Assembly: GCA_034006035.1 (NCBI GenBank)
Contig: JAVETN010000005.1
Span: 62,001 to 126,000 of the forward strand
Direction: 5' to 3'
Length of the DNA: 64,000 nucleotides
Source: Desulforegulaceae bacterium
Lineage (GTDB): Bacteria > Desulfobacterota > Desulfobacteria > Desulfobacterales > JACKCP01
The notes beneath the pieces are model-generated. The model was given only the letters and a program-made list of their open reading frames with translations. It did not search any database and had not been told where the DNA came from. The stretch's first letter is position 1. The number at the start of each line of letters is the position of its first letter. Shown in pieces: positions 2,931 to 57,328 of the stretch. A program made the translations under genes and the position numbers.

Positions 2931-4223
2931 TTATCTAAATAAAGGTTTTATTTCAATTGTTTCTTCTCTTCCAGGGCCAACAGAAGCTATTTTTACTTCT
3001 GTTTCAGAAATTTCTTCAATTCTTCTTATATATTTAATTGTGTTTTCTGGAAAGTCTTCAAATCTTCTAACCTTAGTAAGATCTTCTTCCCAACCCTCAA
3101 GAGCTTCATATTGTGGAACAGCCTTTGCGGTATTTTGAACAAGTGCTGGAAAATAAGATGTGATTTCATTTCCAATTTTATAGGAAGTACAGATTTTAAG
3201 TTGTTTAATTCCTCCAAGAACATCAAGCTTTGTAAGAACAAGTCCTGTTAAAGAGTTGAGTTGAACTGCGTTGTTTAAAATAACAGTGTCAAGCCAGCCG
3301 CATCTTCTTTCTCTTCCTGTGGTGGCTCCAAATTCTGCCCCTTTTTTTTGGATAAACCTTCCGGTTTCATCTAAAAGCTCAGTTGGGAAAGGTCCTGCAC
3401 CAACTCTTGTTGTATATGCTTTTACAATTCCAAGCACTTCCTGGATTGCTTTTGGGCCAACACCGGAACCGCAGGCAATATTTCCTGAAATAGTATTTGA
3501 TGAAGTCACAAAAGGATATGTTCCATGATCTATATCAAGGTGAGTACCCTGAGCACCTTCAAAAAGGATTTTAGAATTATTTGTCAAAGCCTTGTTAAGC
3601 TTTGCAGATATATTTGCTATATGGGGCCTTAGTTTTTTGGCAAATTCTGAATAGGTTTTATAAATTTCATCAAAATCAGGGATTTCATTATGGGAAAAAA
3701 CTTTACTTAAAACTTTTGATTTTTCTTCTACATTTATTTTCAGCATTGATTTAAAAATATCATCTTCAAGAAATTCGGCAAATCTTATTCCATTTCTTGA
3801 AGCCTTGTCTTCGTAGCAAGGCCCTATCCCTCTTCCTGTAGTGCCGATTTTATTAGCTCCGGCACTGGCTTCACGGGCATTATCCAACATTTTATGGTAT
3901 GGAAAAATTACATGGGCTTTTTCGCTGATTAAAAGTTTTTCAGGACTTACATCTATTCCTTTACCTTTAAGATATTCCATTTCTCCCAATAACACTGAAG
4001 GGTCAACAACAACGCCGTTTCCTATCATACATTTTTTACCCTGGATTATTCCTGAAGGCACAAGGTGACTGATTATAGATTCACCATCAATAACCATTGT
4101 ATGACCTGCATTGTTTCCTCCCTGAAACCTTACAACATAGTCTGCACGGTCTGATAAGAGGTCAACTATTTTACCCTTGCCTTCATCTCCCCACTGGGTT
4201 CCAATTACGGCAATACTTGACAC
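2931..4223 (-). CDS. purA: adenylosuccinate synthetase
   Basis: PurA joins IMP and aspartate with GTP to form adenylosuccinate, the first committed step to AMP. The 430-residue length is standard. The N-terminal GTP-binding and catalytic loop GDEGKGK lies at 12-18 (catalytic Asp13), NNAGHT at 37-42 supplies His41, and the base-recognition loop TTGRERRCGWLD is near residue 300. The gene begins 2 nt after the tadA stop codon and is followed by a GC-rich terminator, so tadA-purA forms a two-gene operon. Nothing is unusual in the sequence. Confidence 0.98.
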   Translation of the reverse strand: MSSIAVIGTQWGDEGKGKIVDLLSDRADYVVRFQGGNNAGHTMVIDGESIISHLVPSGIIQGKKCMIGNGVVVDPSVLLGEMEYLKGKGIDVSPEKLLISEKAHVIFPYHKMLDNAREASAGANKIGTTGRGIGPCYEDKASRNGIRFAEFLEDDIFKSMLKINVEEKSKVLSKVFSHNEIPDFDEIYKTYSEFAKKLRPHIANISAKLNKALTNNSKILFEGAQGTHLDIDHGTYPFVTSSNTISGNIACGSGVGPKAIQEVLGIVKAYTTRVGAGPFPTELLDETGRFIQKKGAEFGATTGRERRCGWLDTVILNNAVQLNSLTGLVLTKLDVLGGIKQLKICTSYKIGNEITSYFPALVQNTAKAVPQYEALEGWEEDLTKVRRFEDFPENTIKYIRRIEEISETEVKIASVGPGREETIEIKPLFR

Positions 4224-16931: not shown

Positions 16932-18590
<1,659 letters not shown>

Positions 18591-18655: not shown

Positions 18656-18770
18656 TTGTGGGCAATCACTAATTTAAATCTCTAAAAAAGTTATAAAAAA
18701 ATCTTTTTGATTGAACTTTTTACTTATTTGATTAACAAAGTTATAAACTCAATCATTTAAAAGAGAAATT

Positions 18771-21397
18771 ATGGATGAATTAGAGGAAAAATTTAAAAAT
18801 ATTCTTACCATAGATTTTGAAGCTGTTCCTGGAAAAGAAATTTATGAAATAGGGGCTGTGTTTAAAGGAAAAAAATTCAGATCAGGTAAAATAAAAAATA
18901 TAAAAAAATATTTGATGAACTTGATGCTTTTTCATCAGGTGCTGATTATATTCTTGGGCATAATATTATAAACCACGATCTTTTAATTGCAGAAGATCTT
19001 TGTCCTGAAGCTTCTTTTTTAAAGCTTCCAGTAATTGACACACTTTTTTTATCTCCCCTGGCCTTTCCTGAAAATCCCTATCACAAACTTGTAAAAGACT
19101 ATAAAATTGTAAGAACAGGTAAAAGTGATCCTGTGGAAGATTCTTTATTGTCTTTTTCAATTTTTCAAGATCAGATAAATGCTTTTTGTTTAAAGAAAAA
19201 AACAAATCCAAAGCTTTTGTCATTTTATTCATTTGCTTTTAAAGATGTTTTAATAAGAGGAAATGAAAATAGTTTTAAGGGTATTTTTGATTTGTTTTCA
19301 AGTATGGCTCCGGAAGTTGTAAATGAAATAAAGGCAATAGAAATTTTTAAAAGTCTTTCCCATGGAAAAATTTGTGTTAATGGGTTGGAAAAAATAGAAG
19401 AAAATTATTTTTACAATAAAATTAAAAAACCCATTCTTTCATATCTCCTTTCATGGATTCTTGTATCAGGGGGAAATTCTGTTCTTCCTTCCTGGGTAAA
19501 ATTTGAGTTTCCAGAAATTGCAGAATTAATAAGAACTTTAAGGTTTTATTGTGGTAATGAGAATTGCTCTTATTGTAAAGAAAATAATAATTCTAAAAAA
19601 TTACTTAAAAAATATTTTGGATTTGGAAGTTATAGAACTCTTTCTGACAAAAGAGAGCTTCAAAAACAAATAGTTGATGCAAATTTAGAAGAAATCTCTA
19701 TCCTTGGAATCCTCCCCACCGGAGGAGGGAAATCTATCTGCTATCAGATTCCGGCCCTTCACAGGTTTGAAAGGCTTGGAGATCTGACAATTGTAATTTC
19801 TCCTTTAAAAGCTCTTATGAAAGATCAGGTTGATAATTTAAACAAAAACACCAATACAGTTTGTGCCGATACAATAAACGGAAGCCTTACTCTGCCAGAG
19901 CGAGGTGCTGTAATGGAAAGGGTAAGACTTGGTTATTCAGGACTTTTATATATTTCCCCTGAACAGCTTAGAAATAAAAGCATTGTGTCACTTCTTGAAT
20001 CAAGAGATATTGGATGTTTTGTTTTTGATGAAGCCCATTGTATTTCAAAATGGGGACATGATTTCAGACCTGATTACCTTTATGTTTCAGAATTTATAAA
20101 TAAATACTGTACAAAAATGAATAGAAACCCTTTTGTCTGTGCCTATACTGCCACTGCAAAAATGGATGTGGTAGAAGAGATAAAATCACATTTCATGGAA
20201 GCTCTTGGAATTGATATTCAAGTATTTGCAGGAGGTGTAGCAAGGGAGAATCTATTATATTCTGTGTGGCCTGTGAATTCATCAGTTAAAAATGATATAA
20301 TATTTAGTATTCTCAATGATAAGCTTAAAGAAAATGGCGGTGCTGGAATAGTTTATTGTTTAACTCGTAAAGGGACAGAATTTTTAAGCTCATTTTTAAA
20401 TTCAAAGGGACTTGAATCTCAACATTTTCATGCAGGTCTTTTAGAACCTCAAAAAAGAAATATCCAAGATGATTTTATAGATGGTAAAATTCCAGCTATT
20501 TGTGCAACCAATGCTTTTGGTATGGGAATTTCAGATATTTTTTGACTATATTGAAAAAAATATTGAAAAAAGTATTTTACCTTCACAAATTAAAAAGGAT
20601 TTTTTAAAATTATTTGAAAATGAAAATATCTGGACAAAGCAGATTTTTGAGCTCCTTGATATTTGGGAGGGAATTACAGGTGAAATTGCTGTTTCAGTTT
20701 TAGAGCTTAAAAAGTTTTTTTTGAAGCTTTTGCAGAGGAAAAAAGAGATCCAAAAACTGGAAATGGAGTTTTTCTTGGAACTGTTCACAGTGTAAAAGGG
20801 ATGGAATTTAAATATGTTTTCATAACCGACGGAGGTTGGGACAGGTTAAATTTTTCGGAAATTGAAGATGAAACAAGGCTTTATTATGTTGGAATAACAA
20901 GGGTAAAAAAAGGATTGTTTCTTTATAGTTTAAAAGGGCAGAAAAATCCCCATACAAAAAAGTTTCATAAATTTCCATATATTTATGAAAAAATGGCAAA
21001 AAATTCAAAAATTAAAGGTTACAAGTCAGGAGTTAAAGTATCTATAATTGGGATGAAAGATCTTTTTATAAGTTATGGTGGATATTTTCATAAAAATCAT
21101 GAAATTCATTCTAATTTAAAAAATTTAAATCCAAAAGATAGAGTCTATTTAGAATTTGAAAACTTAAAATATGGGAAAGTAATTGTTTTAAAAGATAAAA
21201 ATCAAAATAAAATTGGAAGACTTTCTAATCATGGAATAAATAGATGGAAAAGTGTTTTAGAAAAAGAGGCTAAGCCTGTTGGAAGGGTGCTTGCAATTAT
21301 TCAAAGACAAAAAGAAGACGATGAAGATATTGAAAGAAGAAAAAACATTAAGGCAAATCAATGGGAGCTTCCTATTATAGAAGTTTTACATGAATAA
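18771..21397 (+). pseudogene. decayed exonuclease-RecQ-UvrD_C fusion helicase
   Basis: Fragments of one long helicase lie in order. The first frame (18771-about 18908) begins a DEDD exonuclease domain (TIDFEAVP). The next (about 18905-20545) continues it (LGHNIINHD, DTLFLSPL, YHKLVKDYK) and then gives RecQ motifs: GILPTGGGKS, TIVISPLKALMKDQ, FVFDEAHCISKWGHDFRP, YTATA and NAFGMGI. It stops where the family normally reads GMGIDKP. After a third short frame (about 20545-20720), the last frame (about 20720-21397) holds the UvrD motif TVHSVKGMEF and VGITRVKKG. Breaks fall in A7 (18902-18908), T6 (near 20537) and T8 (20715-20722) runs. At least the C-terminal RecQ region is gone, so the total (about 875 codons) is much shorter than intact relatives. 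I call it a pseudogene; sequencing indels cannot explain the internal deletion. Confidence 0.8.
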
Positions 21398-22422
21398 AAG
21401 TTTAAAATAATTTCAGCGTTTTTAAGGGGATCGTCTTTTTCAAGATTTATTGTTGAATTGTTTTCATGGTAATCAATTTTTTTCATATAGTAGGAGTAAC
21501 CCTTGTCATAATAAGTTAAAAGTATTTTTATGGTTTCCTCAATTTCATTGTTATAAAGATGAAAAATAGCTTTTTTTAAATTTTCAGGGCCAAGTTTTTT
21601 TTGAACTTTTTTTATTCTTTCTTCTAAAAAGGCCTGGTTAAATTGTCCATATTCCTTTTTAATTCTGTTTATTCGCTCTTTTGCTGGAAGTTCAATATTT
21701 ATCAAAGGAGCATTTTTCATATTGTTTCTTATCTCCAATGGAATAAAAAGATTACCTATTCCAGGACTTTCATTTTCAACCCATATAGGCATTTCAAAAT
21801 TAAAATTAATAATTTTATAAAAAATATTATTTTCAAACTGCTGGGGTGAAGGTTGCTTTTTTTGGCCTAAATCACCAAAAGCAGATCCTTTGTGGCAGGC
21901 AAGTTTTTCCAGATCAAGAACCTGTTCTCCTTTTTTTGCAAGTTCTGCCAAAATTTTTGTTTTTCCAGTGCCTGTTTTTCCGTTGAGAAGAATAAACTTC
22001 ATTTTTTTACCAAGGGTATCAAGGACAAACTTACGAAAACCCTTATAACCAGAGTCAAGTCTTGTAACCTTAAAGCTTGATGTATGAAGCAGCCACCCAA
22101 AAGATTCGCTTCTTAGCCCTCCTCTATGACAATAAACAAAAATTTCTTGGTCCTGGTCTTTTGAAGTAAGTTCATAAATTTGACTGACAAAGGAATAAAG
22201 CTTTGGCTGAACATATAAAAGCCCTTTTAATACAGCTTCTTTTTTTCCTGTAGTTTTGTATATTGTTCCAATATCTTTTCTTTCTTCATTGGAAAAAAGA
22301 GGAATATTTATTGAGTTTGGGATATGTCCTTTGGAATATTCTATGGGAGATCTAACATCTATTATGAGTTTATTTTCAGACTTTTTGATAAACTCATCTG
22401 GTTTTAAAGAATTCAATGTCAT
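21358..22422 (-). CDS. selU: tRNA 2-selenouridine synthase
   Basis: SelU (MnmH/YbbB) replaces sulfur by selenium in the wobble base of tRNAs for Lys, Glu and Gln, using selenophosphate after geranylation. The 354-residue protein has the N-terminal rhodanese domain with active Cys98 in FVYCHRGGLRS and a P-loop GKTGTGKT at 148-155, the same two-domain layout and length as the Escherichia coli enzyme. It is monocistronic and its 3' end overlaps the last 40 bp of the convergent helicase remnant. Together with selC it shows that the cell makes selenophosphate. Confidence 0.94.
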   Translation of the reverse strand: MTLNSLKPDEFIKKSENKLIIDVRSPIEYSKGHIPNSINIPLFSNEERKDIGTIYKTTGKKEAVLKGLLYVQPKLYSFVSQIYELTSKDQDQEIFVYCHRGGLRSESFGWLLHTSSFKVTRLDSGYKGFRKFVLDTLGKKMKFILLNGKTGTGKTKILAELAKKGEQVLDLEKLACHKGSAFGDLGQKKQPSPQQFENNIFYKIINFNFEMPIWVENESPGIGNLFIPLEIRNNMKNAPLINIELPAKERINRIKKEYGQFNQAFLEERIKKVQKKLGPENLKKAIFHLYNNEIEETIKILLTYYDKGYSYYMKKIDYHENNSTINLEKDDPLKNAEIILNFYSCKTSIIGSSH

Positions 22423-34322: not shown

Positions 34323-35081
34323 ATGGGAGAAAAAATAGCAGCAGCTTTTTTTTTCATAATTGTAGGGTTTAGTTCAATCTTTTTTTTCACAGGAGCTCTT
34401 ATTTTAAGAATAGTAACCAGGCTTTTTGATCCAAAACTAAGAATTTTGCACCTTTATACCTGTTTTTGGGCAAGTGTTTATATATGGATGATGAAGTGCT
34501 GGAAATATGAAGTAAGAGGAAAAACTAACATAAAAAGAAATAAAACCTATGTGATTGTTTCAAATCATCAGTCCCAGCTTGACATTCTTCTTGCATTTAC
34601 AAGTTTCTTTCATTTTAAGTGGGTGTCAAAAATTGAAATCTTTAATTTTCCTCTTGTAGGGTGGAATATGAGACTTAACAATTATATTCAACTAAAAAGA
34701 GGAGATAAAAAAAGTATTGAAGAAATGATGGAGGTGGCAGAAAAAACTTTAAAATCAGGAAGCTCTGTTTTCTTTTTTCCTGAAGGCACCAGATCAGAAA
34801 CAGGGGTTTTAAGGCCTTTTAAACCCGGAGCTTTTATTCTTGCAAAAAAACTCAAGCTTCCCATTCTTCCCATTACAATAAACGGCACAATTAATGCCCT
34901 TCCCAAATACAGTATAGATTATCACGGGGTTCATCATATGGTAATGGAAATTTTAGAGCCCATTGAATATGAAGTTTTTAAAGATATGGAAGTTGATGAA
35001 TTATCAGAATATGTAAGACAGATCATAGCAAAAAGAGTAACAGCCCACTTAGCTGGCGGATATTTGAATGAAAAACTTTAA
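34323..35081 (+). CDS. plsC: 1-acyl-sn-glycerol-3-phosphate acyltransferase
   Basis: PlsC acylates lysophosphatidic acid to phosphatidic acid at the inner membrane. The 252-residue protein has an N-terminal hydrophobic anchor (about 8-32), the catalytic NHxxxxD as NHQSQLD (81-87) and FPEGTR (152-157). AAAGGAG lies 8 nt before the ATG. Its stop overlaps the start of recC by 14 bp, so plsC heads the recCB transcript. Confidence 0.93.
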   Translation: MGEKIAAAFFFIIVGFSSIFFFTGALILRIVTRLFDPKLRILHLYTCFWASVYIWMMKCWKYEVRGKTNIKRNKTYVIVSNHQSQLDILLAFTSFFHFKWVSKIEIFNFPLVGWNMRLNNYIQLKRGDKKSIEEMMEVAEKTLKSGSSVFFFPEGTRSETGVLRPFKPGAFILAKKLKLPILPITINGTINALPKYSIDYHGVHHMVMEILEPIEYEVFKDMEVDELSEYVRQIIAKRVTAHLAGGYLNEKL

Positions 35082-38000
35082 TCTTTGTTTTTCAAACAAA
35101 ATTGAAGTTTTACTTGAAAGACTTGGTAAGTCTTTAGAAAAGCCAGAAGGCGGTGTTTTTGAACCTGAAATAATTGTAGTTCAAAGCAAGGGAATGGAAA
35201 AATACCTTTCCCTTAAGCTTTGTGAAAATCTTGGAATCTTATCCAATGTTTTATTTTTATATCCAAATTCCCTGATTGAATATTGCCTTGAAAAGACAGG
35301 GTTTTTAGAAAATTCATCTTTTAAACCGGGTGCTGAAGCTTATACCTGGACAATAATGGATTTGATTTATCAGTTTAAAGATGAGGAAAACTTTAAGGAA
35401 GTTTTAAATTATATAAAAACTTTGGATGGAAAAATAAGTATAGAAAAGCTTTATCAGTTTTCTTCAAAAGTTTCCCGTCTTTTTATGGAATATCAGATAT
35501 TTAGACCAAAATGGATTTTATCATGGGAAGAAGATGAGACTAAAGCAGGATGGCAGTCTTTTTTATGGAACAGACTATGTAAAACCCTTGGTTTGAATTA
35601 CCCTTTAAAGCAAATCAACAATCTTTTTGAAAAGTTTGATACAGAAAAGGAGGTTTTAAATAATCTACCCAAAAAAATTTCAGTTTTTGGAATTTTTTCA
35701 CTTCCCCAGATTTACCTTGAAACCCTGAATTTTTTTTCACAAAACTCAGAAATTAACCTTTATCTTTTAAATCCATGTCTGGATTATTGGGGTGAGATTT
35801 TACCTAAAAGCACAATTGATAATTTACAAAAGAAATCTAAAGGAACAGAGCTTTACCTTGAATATGGCAATTCTCTTCTTGCTTCTTTTGGTAAAACAGG
35901 GAAGGTTTTTTATGAAACAATTAATGATTATCCAATAAATAAAATTGATGAAACTTATATCCCGCCCAAGGAAACCTCGCTTTTATCATCTATTCAGAAT
36001 TCAATTCTAAATCTTTTTGATTATTCAGATACCAGTAAAAAAAATATAAGCTTAAATGACAACTCCATTAGAATTCATTCATGTCATGGTCCCATGAGGG
36101 AGATGGAAGTTTTAAAGGATAATATTTTATATATTCTTGATACAGATAAAAACATTCAGCTTTCAGATATAATTGTAATGATTCCTGATATTGAAAAATA
36201 TTCTCCATATATAAAATCAGTTTTTGGAAGATCAAATGATAATTATAAACTAACTTTTTCCATAGCAGACAGATCCTTTAAATCTGAAAATAAAGGGCTT
36301 GATTCTTTTTTAAAACTCGCAGGAATATTTACCACAAGATTTGAAGCTTCAGTTGTTATAGATCTTTTGGAAGATAAATTTATTCATCAAAAATTTGGAT
36401 TAAATGAAGAAGAAGTTGAAAAAATAAAACAATGGGCCTTGAAATTAAATATATCCTGGGGCCTTGATGAGGATTTTAAGGAAAATTTTAATCTTTCTTC
36501 TGAAATTTCAGGAACCTGGAAAAAAGGCATTGATCTTATTTGTCTTGGTCATGCATTAAATCCTGATGATTTGGTTTTTTTCAACAACCTTTTACCTGTT
36601 TTTGAACTTGATACTTCTGAGCAGGAAACAGCATCAGGGCTTATGGAGTTTTATTATAAGCTTAAAAAATACAGTAAAAAAATTATTGGTAAAAAACATT
36701 TGGCAGCTGAGTGGGCAGATATTTTTTTAAATATTTGCGATGATTTTTTATATTTTGAAAAAACAAATGAGTTTGACTTTATAAATCTTAAAAAAATTTT
36801 TACAGATTTAAAAGAAGAAGCAATTTATTCACAAACCAGTTTGAAAATTCCTTTTATAGTGATCTATCAAAGAATAGAACAAATTGCTTTATCAGCTTCT
36901 TCTGGTTATGGTTTTTTGGATGGAAGACTTACTTTTTGTGCCATGCTTCCAATGCGAAGCATTCCTTTTAAAATGATTTGTGTTTGCGGGTTAAATCAGG
37001 GAGATTTTCCAAGAAATTATTATCCTCCAAATTTTGATCTAATGGGAAAAAACAGACAAAAAGGAGATCGTCATATAAGGGATGATGATAGATATCTTTT
37101 TTTGGAAACCATAATTTCAGCAAGAAATTACCTTTATTTAAGTTACACAGGAAAAGATCAGGAAACAGATTCAATAATTCCCCCTTCTCCCATTTTATCA
37201 GAGCTAATTGATTATATAGAAGATAATTTTATTTCCCCAGAAAATATAATAGAGCAGATTACAAGAAACCACCAGGCTTCTTCATTTTCTTCATCGTATT
37301 TTTCTTTTGATAATTCAGGAGAAGCTGATTTAAGTGGCTCTTTGTTTTCCTATTCAAAAAGATTAATGGAACTTTCAAAAGACATTAATTTGGAAAAGCC
37401 TGAAAGCTTTGTTTTTATTGATCAGCCGTTAAAAAAAGATGAAAAGTCTGAAAGTGAATTTCTAGATTTAAATTCTTTTATAAGTTTTTTTAAAAATCCC
37501 CAGAAGTTTTATTTAAAATTCAATTCCATAGAAACAGAGCAGAGCTTTGATTTTTTTGAAGACAGGGAAGCTTTTAATCCTGGAAATCTTTTTGAATATA
37601 TTATTTCAAATGATCTCCTTGAAATGTTTTTAACAGGAAAAGATGAAGAAATTTCTAAAAAAATTTTTAAAAGCCAAAATAAACTCCCCTATGGTAAAAC
37701 AGGTGAAGTTTTTTACAATAAACTTAAAGAGGATATTTTTTTCTTTTTAAACAAACTTGAAAATTATCTTGAAAAACCAGAAAAAGTTTCCTTGTCTTTA
37801 ATTAGTGATAAACTCAAAATTAAAGGAAACTTAAGTCTTTACAATGGAAAAATCATTCTTTTCAGATATGGAAGAATAAACCCTAAGAATTTAATAGAGC
37901 TTTGGCTAAAACATGTTCTTGCACTTTACAGTGAAATAGCCCAATTTAAAAATTTGTCAATTTTTGCAGGCAGTGAGAAATCTGCTTTTATAAAAAGCAA

Positions 38001-38340
38001 ATTTGAAAATCTTGAAAAGGATCGGGTCTATATAGAAGAACTTGGTAAACTTTTTGAAAAAGGCTGTGTTAGTCCCTTAAATTTTGATCCTGATCTTTCA
38101 TTTAGTTATGTAAAAGGAATTCAAAACTCAGTTAAAAAAGATTTTTCAAAAATTACAGATGAAATACGGGAAATAAATTTATCAAAGGTAAAAAATGAAA
38201 TTAGTTCAGCAAATTCTTTTAAGGATTATTCCCTTATTGAAAAAAATTTCAGGGGAAAAGATTTTTTTGACGATAAGTTTATTGAAATTTCAGAAAAATT
38301 TTTTCTTCCAATCTTTAAAAGTTTAAATGAGGTAAACTAA
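35068..38340 (+). CDS. recC: RecBCD subunit RecC
   Basis: RecC is the Chi-scanning, DNA-splitting subunit of exonuclease V. The 1090-residue protein has the family N-terminus (ILVVQSKGMEKYL-like, here IIVVQSKGMEKYLSLKL), a degenerate helicase core and typical middle motifs such as RSIPFKMICVCGLNQGDFPR and DDDRYLFLE. It starts inside the end of plsC and is followed 7 bp later by recB. No Walker A is present, as expected. Confidence 0.94.
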   Translation: MKNFNLCFSNKIEVLLERLGKSLEKPEGGVFEPEIIVVQSKGMEKYLSLKLCENLGILSNVLFLYPNSLIEYCLEKTGFLENSSFKPGAEAYTWTIMDLIYQFKDEENFKEVLNYIKTLDGKISIEKLYQFSSKVSRLFMEYQIFRPKWILSWEEDETKAGWQSFLWNRLCKTLGLNYPLKQINNLFEKFDTEKEVLNNLPKKISVFGIFSLPQIYLETLNFFSQNSEINLYLLNPCLDYWGEILPKSTIDNLQKKSKGTELYLEYGNSLLASFGKTGKVFYETINDYPINKIDETYIPPKETSLLSSIQNSILNLFDYSDTSKKNISLNDNSIRIHSCHGPMREMEVLKDNILYILDTDKNIQLSDIIVMIPDIEKYSPYIKSVFGRSNDNYKLTFSIADRSFKSENKGLDSFLKLAGIFTTRFEASVVIDLLEDKFIHQKFGLNEEEVEKIKQWALKLNISWGLDEDFKENFNLSSEISGTWKKGIDLICLGHALNPDDLVFFNNLLPVFELDTSEQETASGLMEFYYKLKKYSKKIIGKKHLAAEWADIFLNICDDFLYFEKTNEFDFINLKKIFTDLKEEAIYSQTSLKIPFIVIYQRIEQIALSASSGYGFLDGRLTFCAMLPMRSIPFKMICVCGLNQGDFPRNYYPPNFDLMGKNRQKGDRHIRDDDRYLFLETIISARNYLYLSYTGKDQETDSIIPPSPILSELIDYIEDNFISPENIIEQITRNHQASSFSSSYFSFDNSGEADLSGSLFSYSKRLMELSKDINLEKPESFVFIDQPLKKDEKSESEFLDLNSFISFFKNPQKFYLKFNSIETEQSFDFFEDREAFNPGNLFEYIISNDLLEMFLTGKDEEISKKIFKSQNKLPYGKTGEVFYNKLKEDIFFFLNKLENYLEKPEKVSLSLISDKLKIKGNLSLYNGKIILFRYGRINPKNLIELWLKHVLALYSEIAQFKNLSIFAGSEKSAFIKSKFENLEKDRVYIEELGKLFEKGCVSPLNFDPDLSFSYVKGIQNSVKKDFSKITDEIREINLSKVKNEISSANSFKDYSLIEKNFRGKDFFDDKFIEISEKFFLPIFKSLNEVN

Positions 38341-38347
38341 GGTTTAT

Positions 38348-41300
38348 ATGAAAGTTTTTGATCCTTTTGAAACAAATATAAAAAATTCTACAACCCTTAT
38401 AGAAGCAAGTGCAGGAACAGGAAAAACCTATACAATAACTTCCCTTATTCTAAGACTTGTACTTGAAAAAGACCTTTCAATAAAAGAAATTCTTGTTGTT
38501 ACTTTTACTGAAGCAGCAGCCCTGGAATTAAAGGACAGAATTTTAAAAAGACTTAGAGAAACCCTTAAAGGATTTGAAAGTTTAATTAAAGATAAAAAAG
38601 AAAATATTAAAGATCCTTTTATTTTAAAGCTTGTAGATTCATACCCTGATCCAAAAGAGGGAATGGTTAAAATATCTTCTGCAATAAGAGATTTTGATCT
38701 TTCCTGTATTTTTACAATTCATGGGTTTTGCTATAAAGTTCTTTCAGAATATGCCTTTGAAACAAAAAACTTTTTTGAATCTGAAATTTTGGGTGATGAA
38801 TCTGTGCTTATTGGAAAAAGTGCTGATGATTTTTATAGAAACTATATTGATTCTTCAGATTCCAATAAATCCCGTTTTCTTTTTTTAAATAATTTAGGCC
38901 CTGATTATATAGCTGATTTGGTAAAAAAATATATGTCTTATCCAGAGCTTAAAATTATTGCTAAAAAGCCTTCTGATAATCTTAATGAAATTAATGATGA
39001 ATTTTTTCAATGTGAAAAAGAAGCTGGGCAAATTTGGGAAACTGAGCAGTCTAAAATAAGGGAAATTTTAACTGATTCAGATATTTTTAAAAAAACAATC
39101 AGTGGAAACTTTGAAGAAAGAAAAGAATATCTTGATAAAGTTTTTGAATCGAAAAAAAATTTAAGTTCTGTTTACACCAAGGAAAAAATAAACAGAAAAA
39201 ACAATCCTTTTATGTATTTTAAGTGGACTGAAGTAGAAAAAGGAGCAAAAAAAGGAAAAGAAGCTCCTTTTCATATTTTTTTTGAAAAATGCGAAGAACT
39301 CCACAATAAAGCTTTAGAGCTAGAAGAAGAAACTTTAAAGTTTCTTTCATTATTTAAAAAAACAGGATTTAAAGAAACCTTAAAAATTCTTTCCAATTTA
39401 AAAGATGAGCAAAAAGTTCTTGGGTTTGGAGATTTTTTGTTTAAGGTTAAGTATTCAATTGAAAATGACAATCAAGATGTTTTTAAAAACACTTTGAGGA
39501 CAAGATATAAATCAGCTCTTATTGACGAATTTCAAGACACTGATCTTGTTCAGTATGAAATTTTTAAAAAAGTATTTAAAGGCTATTGTCCTCTTTTTTT
39601 TATTGGGGATCCTAAACAGGCAATTTACAGATTCAGGGGAGCAGATATTTATGCCTACCTTAATGCTAGAAAAGATGCAGATCATATTTTCACCCTTAAT
39701 AAAAACTATAGATCTTCAATTCAGGCAGTAAATTCAGTAAATAATGTTTTTTCATTCTCAGCCAATCCTTTTTGCATTGAGGAAATTAATTATTTTGAAA
39801 TCGGGGCTGTAAAACCTGAATCTGATTCAATTTTTGAAGAAGAAAAGCCTTCAGGAGGAATGGAGTTTGTTTTGATGTCTGAAAAAACAGGCACAAATCA
39901 AACTCAAAAAGAAAATTTTATTTTAAAATATATTGTTTCTGAAATTACAAATATTTTATCCAGGTCTCAAAATAAAAAAATAAAAATTGAAGATAAAGAA
40001 ATTAAACTTTCAGATATTGCTATCCTGGTAAGGGATAATAAGTTTGGAAGGAAAGTAAGGAAATATCTTGAAGAAAACAATCTTCCTTCTGTACTTACCA
40101 GTGAAGAATCTGTTTTTGATACAGAAGAAGCCCAAAATATTCTTGAATTTTTAGACTGTGCTGAAAATCCGGCAAATGATCGAAAAATAAAAAAAGTTCT
40201 TACAGGAGGACTTTTTTTAATGCCTGCTTCCAAATTGAATAAAGTTCTTGAAGACGAATCAAAATGGGCAGAAATTTTAGATAGATTTAAAAATTTCAAT
40301 AGATTATGGACAGAGTTTTCCGTAATGGAAATGCTTGATTGTCTTTTTTATGAACATAATATTTTAAATATTCAGGCAAAGCTTGTTTCAGGTGAAAGAA
40401 GAATAACCAACTTAATCCATATTTTTGAAATTCTTCATGAAGAGGAAGTGAAAAACAGGCATGGGAAAAAATCTCTTGTAAACTGGTTTGCTGAAAAAGT
40501 TTTGAACAACACCAGTTTTTCAAAGGAATATCAGCTCAGAATGGAAAGCGATAAAAAAAAGCTTAAAATTATGACTGTTCATAAAAGTAAAGGCCTTGAG
40601 TTTCCCATAGTTTTTTGTGGTTTTCTACCTAAAAATGTCAGGGTTAAAAATGAATTTGGAATTTTATACCATGATGAAGAAACAAAAGAGCTTATTCTTG
40701 ATTTTAACTCAGGAATAGATGAGAAGCCCGGGTATCTTTTAAAGGAAGAAAGTATTGCTGAGGATTTAAGGGTTTTTTATGTAGCAGTTACAAGAGCAAA
40801 ATATAAAACTTATATATTTCTTGATGAAGATAAGAAAAAAACCGACACTTATGCTACCAGACTTTTTAAAAATGAAGATGGAAATCTTTTTTCTGCAATA
40901 GAAAATATTTCAAAAACCTCTAAAGGATCAATAAATTTTAAAATTTATGATTCCTCTGAAAGTTTAAAAACTTATGATTATCTTCCCTTTAAAGAAAACC
41001 TGGAATTTAAAAACTGTGTGTTTAAAAAGGAATTAAAAAAAAGCTTCCAGATTTCATCTTTTTCACTTGTGTCTTTAAATAAGGAAAAAGATGATGAAAG
41101 ATTTGATTCATTCAGTGATGAAAAATTTGAAATCCCTGTGGAAAATCAGGATGAGTTTAATATTTTTAATTTTCCCAAAGGTGCTTTTTCAGGAATATTT
41201 TTTCATTCCATTTTTGAGGATTTAAATTTTTGTGCATTAGACGATGAAATTGAAGAGTTGGTGAAACTCAAGCTTGAGAAATTTGGATTTGATAATCAAT

Positions 41301-41854
41301 GGCTTTCCTGTGTTTGTGAAATGGTAAGAAATGTTTTAAATAAAGAATTAAAAAAAGGCCTTTTTTTAAAAAACATAAATAAGAATCAAAAAATTACTGA
41401 GCTTGAATTTTATTATCCCTTAAAAGAAAAAGAAATTAATTTTTTTTTAAGAAATCTTTGTTTACTTGATTTGAATGAAGAATTTAAAAAAAGGCTTGAA
41501 AACATTACTGCCAATGAATCCAAGGGCTTTATGAAAGGATTTATAGATCTTGTTTTTGAGCATGACAGCAAGTTTTATATTCTTGATTGGAAATCAAATC
41601 ATCTGGGGTTTTTATACAAAGATTATAAAAATGAAAATCTTTTTAAAGAGATTTGCAACAGCCTTTATTTTCTTCAGTATTATATTTATTCTTATGCCCT
41701 GGATAAATATCTTAAATACCGGCTTGGAAAAAACTACTCATTTGAAAAAAATTTTGGAGGAGTTTATTATCTTTTTTTAAGGGGGATAGATTCTTCTGAA
41801 AACACAACCGGTGTTTTTTATGATTTGCCTTTGTTACCATCAACTGAGGTTTAA
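38348..41854 (+). CDS. recB: RecBCD subunit RecB
   Basis: RecB is the 3'-5' helicase and nuclease subunit. The 1168-residue protein has the Walker A EASAGTGKT (19-27), helicase motif II IDEFQDTD (about 392-399), motif IV GDPKQAIYRFRGAD, motif VI VAVTRAK, and a C-terminal nuclease domain with GFIDLVF (about 1063) and DWKSN (about 1080), so helicase and nuclease are both intact. recC precedes by 7 bp; the lipoprotein gene follows after 1 bp. Confidence 0.96.
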   Translation: MKVFDPFETNIKNSTTLIEASAGTGKTYTITSLILRLVLEKDLSIKEILVVTFTEAAALELKDRILKRLRETLKGFESLIKDKKENIKDPFILKLVDSYPDPKEGMVKISSAIRDFDLSCIFTIHGFCYKVLSEYAFETKNFFESEILGDESVLIGKSADDFYRNYIDSSDSNKSRFLFLNNLGPDYIADLVKKYMSYPELKIIAKKPSDNLNEINDEFFQCEKEAGQIWETEQSKIREILTDSDIFKKTISGNFEERKEYLDKVFESKKNLSSVYTKEKINRKNNPFMYFKWTEVEKGAKKGKEAPFHIFFEKCEELHNKALELEEETLKFLSLFKKTGFKETLKILSNLKDEQKVLGFGDFLFKVKYSIENDNQDVFKNTLRTRYKSALIDEFQDTDLVQYEIFKKVFKGYCPLFFIGDPKQAIYRFRGADIYAYLNARKDADHIFTLNKNYRSSIQAVNSVNNVFSFSANPFCIEEINYFEIGAVKPESDSIFEEEKPSGGMEFVLMSEKTGTNQTQKENFILKYIVSEITNILSRSQNKKIKIEDKEIKLSDIAILVRDNKFGRKVRKYLEENNLPSVLTSEESVFDTEEAQNILEFLDCAENPANDRKIKKVLTGGLFLMPASKLNKVLEDESKWAEILDRFKNFNRLWTEFSVMEMLDCLFYEHNILNIQAKLVSGERRITNLIHIFEILHEEEVKNRHGKKSLVNWFAEKVLNNTSFSKEYQLRMESDKKKLKIMTVHKSKGLEFPIVFCGFLPKNVRVKNEFGILYHDEETKELILDFNSGIDEKPGYLLKEESIAEDLRVFYVAVTRAKYKTYIFLDEDKKKTDTYATRLFKNEDGNLFSAIENISKTSKGSINFKIYDSSESLKTYDYLPFKENLEFKNCVFKKELKKSFQISSFSLVSLNKEKDDERFDSFSDEKFEIPVENQDEFNIFNFPKGAFSGIFFHSIFEDLNFCALDDEIEELVKLKLEKFGFDNQWLSCVCEMVRNVLNKELKKGLFLKNINKNQKITELEFYYPLKEKEINFFLRNLCLLDLNEEFKKRLENITANESKGFMKGFIDLVFEHDSKFYILDWKSNHLGFLYKDYKNENLFKEICNSLYFLQYYIYSYALDKYLKYRLGKNYSFEKNFGGVYYLFLRGIDSSENTTGVFYDLPLLPSTEV

Positions 41855-41855
41855 G

Positions 41856-42443
41856 ATGAAACTAAAATATTTTTTTATTTTTGTCCTTGTTTTTGTTTTT
41901 TTTTCAGGCTGTTCATGGAAAACAAATAGTTTTAGAACTGATGAGGTTTTTAAAAAAGAATTTCTTATTACCGATAATCAGCCTTTAAATCTTTGTGTTA
42001 AAAAAGACTCCCATGTTTTATTGAAAAATTCTGATTTTTCAGTTGAATATCTAAGCCCTTTTGTTGTTTCTTCAATTGATTCTCAATGTGTTCCAGAAAT
42101 TATCTGGGTTTTTAAGATAAAATCTTTTTACGGGTTTTATCCGAAAAAAGTTCAAATTTCAGAGGTTAATTATGGCTGTTTTAAAAAACCTTTAATAATT
42201 GATCAGAATTTAGTTTTTAAAAAAAGATTAATAAATTTAAGAACCAATGGAACTCTTGCTGTTTCTGACACGAACAAGTGGCTTTTTAATAATAAAGATG
42301 AGTTTTTGGTTTTTAAAATAGAAATGTTTGAAAATAAGAATAAAAGCTCTTTGCTTTATCAGCCCTTTTTTTTGTCTTTAGAGGAAAAAAAGAGATATTT
42401 AAGGGCAGTAACTAAAATTAAATCAAACAAAAACTGCCCGTAA
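41856..42443 (+). CDS. putative lipoprotein of unknown function
   Basis: From the ATG at 41856 (GAGG 7 nt upstream; the frame is open further into recB but that lies in coding sequence) the product has 195 residues. Residues 1-18 form a lipoprotein signal peptide and FFSGC gives the lipobox with Cys19. The mature part shows no family I recognise. It is separated from the recB stop by a single base and so is co-transcribed with plsC-recC-recB; any link to RecBCD is unproven. Confidence 0.75.
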   Translation: MKLKYFFIFVLVFVFFSGCSWKTNSFRTDEVFKKEFLITDNQPLNLCVKKDSHVLLKNSDFSVEYLSPFVVSSIDSQCVPEIIWVFKIKSFYGFYPKKVQISEVNYGCFKKPLIIDQNLVFKKRLINLRTNGTLAVSDTNKWLFNNKDEFLVFKIEMFENKNKSSLLYQPFFLSLEEKKRYLRAVTKIKSNKNCP

Positions 42444-42449
42444 AAGTAT

Positions 42450-42989
42450 TTATAAATTGGTTTTTATAAATTCAGTTTGTTCCAAGGCAATTTCAATTAA
42501 AAAAGGTTTGCCATTTATTTTGAATACAAGTCTTCTGTGAATTTGGTACTCACAATCTATTATAAGGGTAATTGCACTGTTTAAGGCAAGAGCTTTGGGC
42601 TGTCCGCAAAAAGATGAAAGGTCATATTTGTCTTCTATAGTTCTCATGAGAAGACCCATGATTTGGTTTGTGATTTCTCCTATACTGTCTGCCACCTCGC
42701 TTGAGGTAAAGTCTTTTGCAAGTTCATCTTCTGGCATTCCCATTGTTTTCATATAAGAGGTGTAAACTTCCATGGCAGCCGCCTCAGTAAGATTAATTAC
42801 AACAAGTCCGTTGTAATTGCCTGTAAACTGGACAAAGCATCCAATGTCGGGAGTCATGGTAACCTTTGGGATTTTTTGAAATGTTTTTGAGTATTCAACT
42901 TTTTGTTTTGTGCTTGTTTCTATTATATGTTTTGTAGCTTTGCAAAGAAGGGTTGCAATTTTATCTATTGTTTGCGGCTCGTTGTTCAT
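42450..42989 (-). CDS. DUF3334 / CheX-CheC-like protein
   Basis: The 179-residue product closely matches DUF3334 members by its middle section (PDIGCFVQF, GLVVINLTEAAAMEVY, GMPEDELAK). DSIGEITNQIMG (101-112) carries the ExxN phosphatase motif (Glu105, Asn108) of CheC/CheX-type chemotaxis phosphatases, so dephosphorylation of a response-regulator-like partner is possible. No chemotaxis genes are near. It stands alone on the minus strand between the recCB operon and recD, converging on the lipoprotein gene. Confidence 0.85.
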   Translation of the reverse strand: MNNEPQTIDKIATLLCKATKHIIETSTKQKVEYSKTFQKIPKVTMTPDIGCFVQFTGNYNGLVVINLTEAAAMEVYTSYMKTMGMPEDELAKDFTSSEVADSIGEITNQIMGLLMRTIEDKYDLSSFCGQPKALALNSAITLIIDCEYQIHRRLVFKINGKPFLIEIALEQTEFIKTNL

Positions 42990-43046
42990 GGTATTGTAGA
43001 CCTTTCAAATCAATTAATATAAATTTAAAATACATAAAGATATAAC

Positions 43047-44891
43047 ATGAAAATAAAGGAATTAACAAATCAAGATTTTCACCATGAACTTTTTCAAGAC
43101 TTTAAAGAAGAATACGGTTTTAGTTTTTTAGATTTTTATTTTTCCCAATTTTTAATGGAAAAAGAGGATGATAAGAGTTTTATTTCAGCCTTTTTTCTTA
43201 TGTACTTGAGCATGGAAACAAGAAAAGGAAATATTTGCATTGATTTAAATTCTGATCCTAAACTTTTTAAGTTCGTAAAAAACTACAATATTTCCATTGA
43301 TCAATTTAAAAATGAAATTATAGCCTGCGAAGCTGTAGGTAAAGACAGCAGCAAGTCCCCTATTGTATATGAAAATGATTTTTTTTATTTAAACAGGTAT
43401 TATAACTATGAAAATTTTTTTTCAAAATTTATAATCTCAAGGGCTTTAAATAAAAACTATGATAAAAAAACAATTTCAAAACTTAATCAGATAATTCCAA
43501 AATATTTTAAAGACTCCAAATTAAATCCAGACTGGCAGATGTTTGCTGCTCTTACAGCATGCTTTTCCCAGTTTTGTGCTGTTTCAGGAGGGCCGGGCAC
43601 AGGTAAAACCACAGTTATAGTAAAAATAATTGCAGTGATTTTTGAACTTTGGTATCCAAAGATTCCTGAAATAATTTTGTGTGCACCCACTGGAAAAGCT
43701 GCTTCAAGACTTGTTGAAGCAATTAACAATACAATCTCCTCCATAAATTTAAATGAAGAAATTAAAAAAAATTTCCCCTCAAAAGCATCTACCATTCACA
43801 GACTTCTTGGTTTTTCATCAAAAACAAACAGATTTGTATTCAATAAAAATAACAGGCTTAAAGCTGATGTAGTAATTGTTGATGAAGCTTCAATGATAGA
43901 TATGAAGCTAATGGCCAATCTTTGCGAAGCACTTGAAGATCATTCAAAACTTATTCTTTTAGGTGATAGATTTCAGCTTGCTTCTGTTTCTCCTGGTTCT
44001 GTGTTTGGTGATATTTGTAAAAGAGGAGAAAAAACAGGGTGCTCAAATAAATACATTGAGGTATTAAAAAATTTTTTTGATGAAAAAGGCTTAAGTCAAA
44101 TCCCTTGTTCAGATGATGGCAAAATTTCAGATTCCATAGTTGAGCTTAAAAAAAGTTATAGATTTGATAAAAAAAGTGGAATTGGCAAACTGGCAGAAGC
44201 TGTTAAAAATATGGATACTCAAAAATGTTTTGATATTTTTGATTCAGGTTTTAATGATATTGAATTTATTGAAACAAAAAACTATTCAGATTTTAAAACC
44301 AGGATTCTTGGTTTTGCAGACAAATATTATAAAAGACTTGGTTTAGTTAAAGACCCTGAGCTGGCTTTTAAATATTTTTCAGAGTTTATGATTTTATCTC
44401 CCTTAAATGACAATGAGTATGGAGTTTCAGGGCTTAATTTGATAATTGAAAATCTTTTTACAAATAAAAAAAGTTTGGAAGAAAAACTTTGGTACAATGG
44501 AAAACCTGTAATTATAACAAAAAATGATTATATAAATAATCTTTTTAATGGGGACACAGGGATTTGTTTAGAAGATCGAAACGGTGAAAACAAGGTTTTT
44601 TTCCAATCTTCTGATTTGGCTTATAAAACTTTTCACCCTCTTAGATTAAATAATTGCCAAAGTGTTTTTTCAATGACTATTCATAAAAGCCAGGGCTCTG
44701 AGTTTGACAATGTTTTAATTGTTCTTCCAGAATATGAAACAAGTGTTTTGTCAAGGGAGCTTATTTATACTGCTGTAACAAGGGCTAGAAAAAAGGTTTA
44801 TTTTTTGGGCAAAAAGTCTATTTTCCAAACTAGTATAAAAAGGTCTGTTTCAAGAAGTTCAGGTCTTTATTCAAGACTTTGGAAAAAATGA
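43047..44891 (+). CDS. recD: RecBCD subunit RecD
   Basis: RecD is the 5'-3' helicase subunit of exonuclease V. The 614-residue protein has an N-terminal RecB-interaction domain, Walker A GGPGTGKTT (about 182), motif II VIVDEASMID, GDRFQLASV and the C-terminal SMTIHKSQGSEFD and YTAVTRAR. Unlike the common recC-recB-recD order, two genes separate it from recB, one on the opposite strand, so it needs its own promoter in the roughly 57-bp gap before it or beyond. Confidence 0.95.
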   Translation: MKIKELTNQDFHHELFQDFKEEYGFSFLDFYFSQFLMEKEDDKSFISAFFLMYLSMETRKGNICIDLNSDPKLFKFVKNYNISIDQFKNEIIACEAVGKDSSKSPIVYENDFFYLNRYYNYENFFSKFIISRALNKNYDKKTISKLNQIIPKYFKDSKLNPDWQMFAALTACFSQFCAVSGGPGTGKTTVIVKIIAVIFELWYPKIPEIILCAPTGKAASRLVEAINNTISSINLNEEIKKNFPSKASTIHRLLGFSSKTNRFVFNKNNRLKADVVIVDEASMIDMKLMANLCEALEDHSKLILLGDRFQLASVSPGSVFGDICKRGEKTGCSNKYIEVLKNFFDEKGLSQIPCSDDGKISDSIVELKKSYRFDKKSGIGKLAEAVKNMDTQKCFDIFDSGFNDIEFIETKNYSDFKTRILGFADKYYKRLGLVKDPELAFKYFSEFMILSPLNDNEYGVSGLNLIIENLFTNKKSLEEKLWYNGKPVIITKNDYINNLFNGDTGICLEDRNGENKVFFQSSDLAYKTFHPLRLNNCQSVFSMTIHKSQGSEFDNVLIVLPEYETSVLSRELIYTAVTRARKKVYFLGKKSIFQTSIKRSVSRSSGLYSRLWKK

Positions 44892-54169: not shown

Positions 54170-55045
54170 CTAAATCATCCCCATGATTTGATAGATAAGT
54201 CTTGCACAGGTAAATTCAGGAAAGTGAAGGTTTTGAATAGGAGACAGCTCAACAATATCAAATCCGATTATTTTTTTTTCTTTTGAAATTTTTTTTATGA
54301 TTTCAAGGGTTTCATACCACATAAGCCCGCCTGGTTCAGGAGTTCCTGTTGAAGGCATTATGGATGGATCAAGACCGTCTACATCAATTGTAAGGTAAAT
54401 TTCTTCAGGGAACTTTTTTGGAAGAATTATATCAGGGATATTTTTGTTTAGTTCTTTTGCATCAAGATATTTTATGTTTTTTTCTTTTCTAAGTTCAACT
54501 TCATAGGGCGAAAGGCTTCTTACTCCAAGCTGAAAGATATCAAGTCCAAAATCTAAGGCTCTTTTCATTACACAGGCATGACTGAATTTACTTTCTTCAT
54601 AAGTGTCGCGAAGATCTGCATGGGCATCTATTTGAACTATTCCGGGTTTTTTGCCGTTTTTCATAAAAGAATTGAACGCTCCTACTGAAACAGTGTGTTC
54701 TCCTCCAAGAATTACAGGGATTTTAAAAAGTTTAAGAGTTTTGGATATGGCTTGATCCATAAGTTTAAAAAGATCTTTGTGGTTATCTGCAAACAAAGGG
54801 GAATGGGTATAAATACCTTTGGCTGAGGGATTGGAGTATCCGTCAAACACTTCAAGCTGTGAAGATGCTTCAAGTATTTTTAAAGGGCCGTTTTTTGTTC
54901 CTCCTCCGTATGACACGGTTTTTTCATAGGGAACAGGAATAATATGGAAAAACGCATTTTCAGGTGAAACTTTGCCTATTTCATCTTCAAGAAAACAAGG
55001 ATAACTTGCTTTATGATAGTCTTGATTTAAAGTCTTCATATCCAA
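54170..55045 (-). CDS. speB: agmatinase
   Basis: SpeB splits agmatine to putrescine and urea with a two-Mn centre. The 291-residue protein has all ligand motifs: GGEHT (His117), DAHADLRD (Asp140, His142, Asp144) and DVDGLDPS. It is the last gene of the polyamine cluster and its start overlaps the end of nspC by 35 bp (29 bp if the second Met is used). With SpeA, it produces the putrescine used by the dehydrogenase encoded upstream. Confidence 0.93.
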   Translation of the reverse strand: MDMKTLNQDYHKASYPCFLEDEIGKVSPENAFFHIIPVPYEKTVSYGGGTKNGPLKILEASSQLEVFDGYSNPSAKGIYTHSPLFADNHKDLFKLMDQAISKTLKLFKIPVILGGEHTVSVGAFNSFMKNGKKPGIVQIDAHADLRDTYEESKFSHACVMKRALDFGLDIFQLGVRSLSPYEVELRKEKNIKYLDAKELNKNIPDIILPKKFPEEIYLTIDVDGLDPSIMPSTGTPEPGGLMWYETLEIIKKISKEKKIIGFDIVELSPIQNLHFPEFTCARLIYQIMGMI

Positions 55046-56156
55046 ATTCTTTTATAAGCTGAATGCTTTTTGTTTCTGGGTCATAAATATTAATATCAGG
55101 CAAACCTATTCCGTTAAATGTGTTTGTCTTTACCATTGTATAATGGGCCATGTCGGTAAATATCACTTTTGAACCCGGCTTGAGCTGATAATCAAAACTG
55201 TATTCTCCAATAACATCTCCAGCTAGACATGAAAGCCCTGCCAGTCTATATGAGTGCTTTTTTATGCTATTAAAATCAGAATCTATGGCAAAAGGTCTAT
55301 AGGGCATTTCCATTATATCAGGCATATGAGCAGCTGCTGAAGTATCAAGAACAGCAATTTTCATATCACTTCCCTTAATTACATCCAAAACAGTTGAAAC
55401 CATAAAGCCTGTATTCAAGGCAACTGCCTCGCCTGGTTCAAGATAAATTTCAAGGTTATATTTTTTTTTAAAATCAATTATTGTCTTGCAAAGAAGATTA
55501 ATATCATAATCATTTCTTGTAATATGATGTCCTCCCCCAAAATTTACCCATTTCATTTTATCAAAATATTTGCCAAATTTTTCTTCAAAAGCATTTAATA
55601 CAGTAATAAAAGGGTGAACATTTTGTTCGCAAAGACAATGAAAATGAAGACCGTCTATACCTTCTAAATTATTTTCTTCAAAATTTTCAATTCTTACTCC
55701 AAGCCTTGAGCCAGGAGCTGAAGGATCATAAATTGGTACAGAGCCCACAGATTTTTCAGGGTTTACTCTAATTCCAAAGGAAAGGTCTTTATTAATTTGT
55801 TTTGCTTTATCAATAAATTTGTTTTTTTGGGCAAAAGAATTAAAAATTAAATGGTCACTGTATTTTGAAATTTTTAAAATATCAGATTCAGAAAAACCAG
55901 CAGCATAGGAATGCACCTCGCCTTTAAATTCTTCATGTCCAAGCCTTGCTTCGTTTGGGGAACTTGCACAGGTTCCGTTTAAATATTTTGAAATTAAAGG
56001 AGCAAAGGAAAACATGGCAAAGCTTTTTAAGGCAAGAAGAATTTTTGCTCCTGTTTCTTGTTTAACTTTTTTAAGAATTTCAAGATTTTTTATTAAAAGG
56101 CCTTTGTCTACAACAAAGGCCGGAGTTTTTAATTTTTCAGGGTCAAAATTTAACAT
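55011..56156 (-). CDS. nspC: carboxynorspermidine/carboxyspermidine decarboxylase
   Basis: NspC is a PLP enzyme of the alanine-racemase fold that decarboxylates carboxyspermidine to spermidine (or carboxynorspermidine to norspermidine). The 381-residue protein has the PLP lysine Lys44 in LLALKSFAMF, the VNFGGGHH phosphate-binding loop and a C-terminal active-site Cys in GLSCLAGDVIGEY. It overlaps the dehydrogenase gene by 7 bp and speB by 35 bp, so these three are translationally coupled. Confidence 0.93.
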   Translation of the reverse strand: MLNFDPEKLKTPAFVVDKGLLIKNLEILKKVKQETGAKILLALKSFAMFSFAPLISKYLNGTCASSPNEARLGHEEFKGEVHSYAAGFSESDILKISKYSDHLIFNSFAQKNKFIDKAKQINKDLSFGIRVNPEKSVGSVPIYDPSAPGSRLGVRIENFEENNLEGIDGLHFHCLCEQNVHPFITVLNAFEEKFGKYFDKMKWVNFGGGHHITRNDYDINLLCKTIIDFKKKYNLEIYLEPGEAVALNTGFMVSTVLDVIKGSDMKIAVLDTSAAAHMPDIMEMPYRPFAIDSDFNSIKKHSYRLAGLSCLAGDVIGEYSFDYQLKPGSKVIFTDMAHYTMVKTNTFNGIGLPDINIYDPETKSIQLIKEFGYEDFKSRLS

Positions 56157-57328
56157 ATATCATATTTCCATGGTAACCCGTATTTGTTCAAATCTTCCAT
56201 AAAAGGATCAGGATCCATTTGTTCCATGTTAAATACTCCTTTTCCTCTCCATTTTTTTTCTAAAATCATTTTGGCTCCTATCATTGCAGGAACCCCTGTA
56301 GTATATGAAATTGCCTGGGATTCAACTTCTTTGAAACACTCTTCGTGATCGCAGATATTGTAAATATAAACGGTTTTGTTTTTTCCGTCTTTTTTCCCTT
56401 TTATAAGACAGCCTATGCAGGTTTTACCTTTTGTTGTTTTTCCAAGGCTTCCGGGATCTGGTAAAACAGCTTTTAAAAACTGCAATGGTACAATTTCAAC
56501 TCCATTGTATTTTACAGGCTCAATTGAAGTCATTCCAACATTTTGCAAAACTTCAAGGTGGTTTAAATAATTATCTGAAAATGTCATCCAAAACCTTGCT
56601 TCTTTTATTGACGGAATATGTTTTACAAGGGACTCAAGCTCTTCGTGATACATCAGGTATATTTTTTTCTCTCCTATGTTTCCAGGAAAATCAAAAGTTT
56701 TTGATTCTGAAAGAGGAGGGGTTTCAACCCAGTTACCGTCTTTATAAAATTTCCCTTTAGCAGTGACTTCTCTTATATTTATTTCAGGGTTGAAGTTTGT
56801 GGCAAAAGGATGGCCATGGTCTCCAGCGTTACAGTCAATTATATCAAGGATTTCAATTTCATCTAAAAGGTGTTTGTTTACATAAGCTGTAAAAACATTG
56901 GTAACTCCTGGATCAAATCCACTTCCAAGAAGAGCCATTATTCCTTTTTCCTTAAATCTTTCATGATAGTCCCATTGCCATTTATAGCAGAATTTTGCCT
57001 CATCCTTTGGCTCGTAGTTTGCTGTATCAAGGTAGTCGGTTCCTGTTTCAAGGCAGGCGTCCATTATGGGAAGGTCCTGGTAGGGCAGGGCGACATTTAT
57101 TACAAGTTCAGGCTTAAAAGATCTTATCAGATCTGCAACCTGCTTTGAATCATCAGCGTCAACCTGGGCTGTTTTGATTGGAGTTTTTGTTTTTTTTGCA
57201 ATTTCATCGCATTTAGACTTTGTTCTGCTGGCTAGACAAATATCAGAAAACACTTCGGGAAGCATTGCACATTTTTTTGCAACAACGTTTCCAACGCCTC
57301 CGGCACCGATTATAAGAACTTTTGACAT
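56150..57328 (-). CDS. carboxynorspermidine/carboxyspermidine dehydrogenase
   Basis: The 392-residue protein belongs to the saccharopine-dehydrogenase-like family, with NAD(P) loop IGAGGVGNVVAKK near the start, GSGFDPGVTNVF in the middle and a conserved HGHPFATNFNPEINIRE stretch. In the alternative polyamine pathway it condenses putrescine (or diaminopropane) with aspartate semialdehyde and reduces the imine. The overlap with nspC makes this assignment firm over lysine metabolism. AAGGAGAC lies before the ATG. Confidence 0.92.
   Translation of the reverse strand: MSKVLIIGAGGVGNVVAKKCAMLPEVFSDICLASRTKSKCDEIAKKTKTPIKTAQVDADDSKQVADLIRSFKPELVINVALPYQDLPIMDACLETGTDYLDTANYEPKDEAKFCYKWQWDYHERFKEKGIMALLGSGFDPGVTNVFTAYVNKHLLDEIEILDIIDCNAGDHGHPFATNFNPEINIREVTAKGKFYKDGNWVETPPLSESKTFDFPGNIGEKKIYLMYHEELESLVKHIPSIKEARFWMTFSDNYLNHLEVLQNVGMTSIEPVKYNGVEIVPLQFLKAVLPDPGSLGKTTKGKTCIGCLIKGKKDGKNKTVYIYNICDHEECFKEVESQAISYTTGVPAMIGAKMILEKKWRGKGVFNMEQMDPDPFMEDLNKYGLPWKYDIC

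Follow-up and report, generated by a model that had tools for sequence, protein, structure and literature searches.

WRN is a eukaryotic fusion of an exonuclease to a RecQ helicase. As WRN is commonly described, the gene family considered here has the same order, exonuclease then RecQ, but unlike WRN so described it has a UvrD motor after RecQ. With E. coli-type RecQ, the copy that we studied has the core in common (TIGR00614, 228.7 bits in the RecQ piece against a cut-off of 219.8), while its TIGR01389 score is far under the cut-off (269.9 against 640.2 bits); the family differs from E. coli-type RecQ in that an exonuclease and a UvrD motor are part of its chain, and the present copy is cut before motif VI. 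The PADLOC profiles DpdF and GajB match the RecQ and UvrD parts of an intact relative (L016), partially and over the helicase cores only, and, compared with DpdF and GajB systems, the fusion-family loci are without conserved neighbors. With the large fusions annotated as RecQ on plasmids (for example NZ_CP072750.1) and the intact relatives L014 and L016, all the pieces remaining in our copy are collinear, and its exonuclease-RecQ part is 60% identical to L014 and L016; whole copies, however, keep a single open frame and the ~849 residues that ours lacks. Literature searches on such fusions or related helicases found no paper on this fusion family.

The copy lies at 18771-21397 of a 64,000-nucleotide stretch (the window) from the draft genome of a Desulforegulaceae bacterium (GCA_034006035.1, contig JAVETN010000005.1; 2,638,986 bases in 31 contigs, 97.7% complete). 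We consider it likely to be a recently inactivated pseudogene of an exonuclease-RecQ-UvrD fusion. Decay at this locus is ordinary, in a family that is known and patchily distributed, and alone it matters little: it is a young pseudogene between loss of function and loss of sequence, and to annotate its fragments as helicase genes in their own right would be a mistake. The intact family is widespread, and a DnaQ-fold exonuclease with SF2 and SF1 motors in one chain merits a biochemical look.

The intact family

Relatives encode the fusion as a single open frame, with 69 full-length frames of 1601-1922 codons, and, contrary to one of the refuting conditions named by an earlier, sequence-only reading of the window, the region after the GMGI motif is present in these intact homologues. 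Our references were L014 (1744 codons) and L016 (1755 codons), counted stop to stop. Intact L016 has, in order, the exonuclease (residues ~27-205), the RecQ DEAD and Helicase_C domains (PF00270, PF00271), a winged-helix-rich middle, the UvrD N-terminal motor with its Walker A motif (PF00580), and UvrD_C.

The exonuclease domain has no Pfam match in L016 and weak matches in a few of 42 members. Its structural model (pLDDT 89.3) matches DnaQ-fold nucleases, the best Foldseek match being E. coli Pol II (E 2.1e-4). VIA Z scores of ~10-12 were obtained against DnaQ domains, Pol II, oligoribonucleases and RNase T, including a DnaQ domain (8h2f; Z 11.5, rmsd 3.5, 131 aligned) and E. coli Pol II (3k59; Z 11.3, rmsd 3.0, 135 aligned). 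Residues D15, E17, G63-N65, D70 and D124 are invariant in 42 sequences, alignments A1 and A2 holding 42 of the 69 full-length relatives. DEDDh enzymes carry His five residues before the last Asp; family-wide the majority residue there, at the end of the exonuclease domain (L016 ~145-150), is Asn, which may mean an unusual or weakened exonuclease in every member. For the fold of the middle region there was no Foldseek match at E <= 0.001, and the winged-helix matches from VIA reached Z 10.5 (rmsd 2.6, 78 aligned), so we call this region just winged-helix-rich; a PDB sequence search with it yielded nothing convincing.

The parent of the window copy would have been a stand-alone accessory gene for a DnaQ-fold 3'-5' exonuclease joined to two motors, RecQ (SF2) and a complete one of UvrD type (SF1). 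Going by its domains, the probable work of the intact enzyme is to unwind DNA and to trim 3' ends, either in repair or against foreign DNA.

Of 57 other genomes in a first sample, 4 had the long form, and in a second sample 50 of 290 other genomes had a family match. At E <= 1e-60 the family occurs on 32 plasmid records, annotated where named as 'RecQ family ATP-dependent DNA helicase' among the matches listed. E. coli genomes searched with the DNA of one relative gave no match. No conserved neighbors or operon partners appeared across the collected loci: the largest cluster of neighboring ORFs (12 loci) includes helicase pieces themselves, from truncated or broken copies, and in the next (7 loci) the distances to the gene vary. 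One could imagine that the intact family is an uncharacterized single-protein nuclease with two motors, directed against foreign DNA and gained and lost rapidly as defense genes are, but we hold this to be improbable. If it were true, the patchy spread, the lack of conserved neighbors, the plasmids and the repeated internal deletions would be signs of defense-gene-like turnover.

Pieces, breaks and the missing half

Table 1. Features at the locus and beside it, in window coordinates
Feature	Position	Strand	Basis or remark
groEL	16944-18590		adjoins 18771-21397 on one side; Cpn60 family
N-terminal piece, start of DnaQ-fold exonuclease, motif I (DFE)	18771..18908	+	L016 residues ~26-72
Break 1, A7 run, frame change	18902..18908	+	stops and alignment
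Exonuclease remainder (motifs II, III), RecQ domain 1A and most of 2A	18909..20530	+	up to L016 residue 613
Junction of internal deletion, GGAATTT, frame changes	20525..20531	+	bases fit both flanks
Short piece from inside UvrD-like C-terminal part	20526..20714	+	L016 residues ~1463-1525, E 5e-11
Break 3, T8 run, frame change	20715..20722	+	stops and alignment
End of UvrD_C and C-terminal tail of fusion, to stop	20723..21397	+	UvrD_C 43.7 bits, UvrD_C_2 32.5 bits
mnmH-like gene	21358-22422	opposite to pseudogene	Rhodanese and weak AAA_18

The sequence-only reading had seen fragments of one large helicase, in order, at 18771-21397, and four tblastn matches (E 0.0 to 1.5e-10) bear this out. Against L016, the first match pairs window positions 18768-18959 with residues 26-89 (E 1.5e-10; trustworthy up to residue ~72), and the second pairs 18869-20530 with 60-613 (E 0.0, identity 60%). 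The third joins 20508-20747 to 1457-1537 (E 5e-11), and the fourth joins 20702-21406 to 1522-1745 (E 2e-49; identity 40% to L016 and 45% to L014). The four pieces are collinear with intact L014 and L016, as is the homology over exonuclease, RecQ and UvrD C-terminus with the fusion family. The domain labels of that reading also stand, the exonuclease by a predicted and matched fold and RecQ and UvrD_C by family models, while its three frames reduce to two: the coordinates of the pieces modulo 3 are 0, 2, 0, 2, the two frames alternating. Where relatives have a single open frame of ~1,600-1,900 codons, the window copy has four pieces and three breaks.

Within the pieces, much is retained. The N-terminal piece keeps the invariant Asp and Glu of exonuclease alignment A1, and the DnaQ-fold (DEDD) exonuclease motifs DxE, GHN...D and late D are all present. 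The RecQ piece carries DEAD and Helicase_C matches and the SF2 core motifs I to V, with GGGKS, DEAH and ATNAFGMG, and it ends at GMGI (motif V; 20519-20530). It has no stop in 543 codons, whereas its two alternative frames contain 41 and 56, and no in-frame stop lies within any remnant piece.

Homopolymer runs had been proposed as the sites of all three breaks. The A7 and T8 runs are upheld. The chance that two random breaks both fall <=3 bases from a run of >=7 is ~0.001, a rough figure, the break positions having been taken by eye from the alignment. At break 1 the left frame is open to a stop at 18969 and the right frame is open from a stop at 18887; at break 3 the right frame is open from a stop at 20708 and the left frame is open to a stop at 20793. 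The middle break had been placed at a T6 run near 20537, but a separate indel there (20538-20543) was rejected, as the run lies wholly inside the downstream piece, and the break is instead a deletion junction. The left piece fits relatives to GMGI, ending at 20530, and the right piece fits them from 20526 in another frame; the downstream frame, which is open from the stop at 20478 to that at 20793, reads E-F-Q-I-F-F-D-Y from 20526, which aligns with E-I-Q-S-F-I-T-Y of L016 at the right side of the gap. Because GGAATTT fits both flanks, we take it to be the deletion junction, the deletion being of itself the cause of the frame change. The flanks have ~5-7 bases in common at this point, and the deletion may have arisen between such short direct repeats; the A7 and T8 breaks would be slippage indels in an AT-rich genome.

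The missing part amounts to ~849 residues (L016 ~614-1462), or ~2.5 kb, about half of the gene. The deletion removed RecQ motif VI and C-terminus, the winged-helix-rich middle, the whole UvrD N-terminal motor and part of UvrD_C; the earlier claim of a loss after GMGI thus holds for the RecQ C-terminus, while the UvrD loss goes beyond the 'front part' that had been named. After 20530 the RecQ motif VI and C-terminal part are absent, where L016 has QEAGRAGRD, and PF00580, present in L016, has no match in the window pieces. Since the deletion alone takes both RecQ motif VI and the nucleotide-binding motor of UvrD, no reading of the A7 and T8 runs restores either helicase. A search of the organism's own genome with the whole L016 protein did not find the lost part elsewhere. 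The other matches were a RecQ of 704 codons on contig C6 and ordinary UvrD/Rep-like and DEAD-box helicases, and a gene split or relocated within the genome was rejected on the ground that only ordinary helicases match elsewhere.

A shortened product, exonuclease with partial RecQ ending at 20545 and expressed via slippage at A7, might be imagined to be maintained, as exonuclease motifs I-III are all retained and there is precedent in endosymbionts, where some broken genes have 12-50% of their transcripts corrected by slippage at poly(A) runs (PMC5009743). We regard this as extremely unlikely: RecQ motif VI and the entire second motor are gone, and no other whole gene among the copies examined ends just after GMGI.

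Decay weighed against error

The main pieces are, judged by their residues, under constraint until recently. In the RecQ piece all 71 columns invariant in the 69 full-length relatives are kept, and in the C-terminal piece 10 of 10; for columns conserved at the 95% level the counts are 99 of 101 and 11 of 13. The count used 69 of 80 loci, omitting L015, L028, L069, L072, L074 and L076 as broken and five further loci whose frames are shortened by contig ends. Identities to L016 and L014, respectively, are 0.61 and 0.60 for RecQ (0.69 between L014 and L016), 0.41 and 0.47 for the C-terminus (against 0.52) and 0.44 and 0.50 for the first piece (against 0.61). The short middle piece is lower, 0.32 and 0.30 against 0.58, with a few residues left of the junction included, and would fit a somewhat older decay of that part. 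The retained invariant residues, together with the lack of in-frame stops, indicate that inactivation was recent.

Such well-conserved pieces fit a misassembled intact gene as well as a young pseudogene. The sequence-only reading had left decay and assembly collapse side by side, and here true decay is the better supported. An assembly collapse or chimera in place of a true deletion, with the living gene whole, would accord with remnants that look fully constrained and with a draft in 31 contigs, yet we judge it very unlikely, because the flanks share just ~5-7 junction bases, a length far below usual assembly word lengths and too few for graph collapse. Moreover, no other contig of the genome carries the missing part, and two more frame breaks are located outside the junction.

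A deletion that is real, with the frame change at A7 and/or T8 due to sequencing or polishing error, has somewhat more in its favor. Both changes fall at A/T runs of at least 7, which make up 1.9% of this gene, and another public copy (L015) breaks at A9. Against this, 159 A/T runs of >=7 are unbroken in the window's remaining open frames, 48 ORFs with 53,994 bases in all, while 2 of the 7 such runs in this gene coincide with breaks. This argues against general homopolymer error, although the comparison is biased by the choice of frames for being open. A Pfam scan of 10 of these ORFs found no split genes. Error at one or both runs therefore seems to us unlikely, and inactivation by real deletion and real indels remains our preferred reading.

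Other broken copies and the surroundings of the locus

Among the best 80 of 583 candidate loci from a public genome collection, 6 are broken (the six omitted above): L015 at A9, L072 by a stop and L074 by two internal deletions. L076 has several frame breaks from repeated short direct duplications within the gene, which look like an assembly fault. At E <= 1e-75, 51 of 291 genomes of the class hold the family; by a table classified by hand, 41 copies are whole, 6 are cut by contig ends or split over contigs (the placing of G267 among these being a guess) and 4 are broken, the window's included (G000, G144, G157, G208). The stops counted 'inside' five whole copies are taken as genuine ends, since they accompany alignments that extend beyond query residue 1718.

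Internal deletions have occurred independently in L074, L106 and L107. The deletion in G144 starts directly behind GMGIDKK, close to where the window copy's deletion has its left end; G157 has lost ~780 residues; and the fragment lengths of G208 are identical to those of L015. On contig C37 of G144, the broken copy (L106) lies on the reverse strand at ~1987 and 3038-3400, and further on there are gene fragments out of order.

In the nearest clade 3 of 5 copies are broken, while the remaining loci have 3 broken in 75 (Fisher p = 0.002 with the window left out; best 80 of 583). Clade-specific decay was nevertheless dropped, as the wider sample of 291 genomes, classified by hand, gave 3 broken and 15 intact in the near group (copies of >=56% identity, window included) against 1 and 26, p = 0.29.

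In the collected loci the gene is not flanked by groEL, mnmH or the other window neighbors, with scattered matches only in L020, L021, L042 and L092. At their 3' ends the pseudogene and the mnmH-like gene, which converge, have 40 bases in common (21358-21397). Elsewhere in the window, UvrD-family motors (PF00580 matches) lie in ORFs 38348-41854 and 43047-44891, and 35068-44891 is a probable recBCD-type cluster, whose genes we take to be recC, recB and recD. On the minus strand at 54170-57328, Arginase-family, PLP-decarboxylase and saccharopine-dehydrogenase-like genes are adjacent, as in polyamine synthesis.
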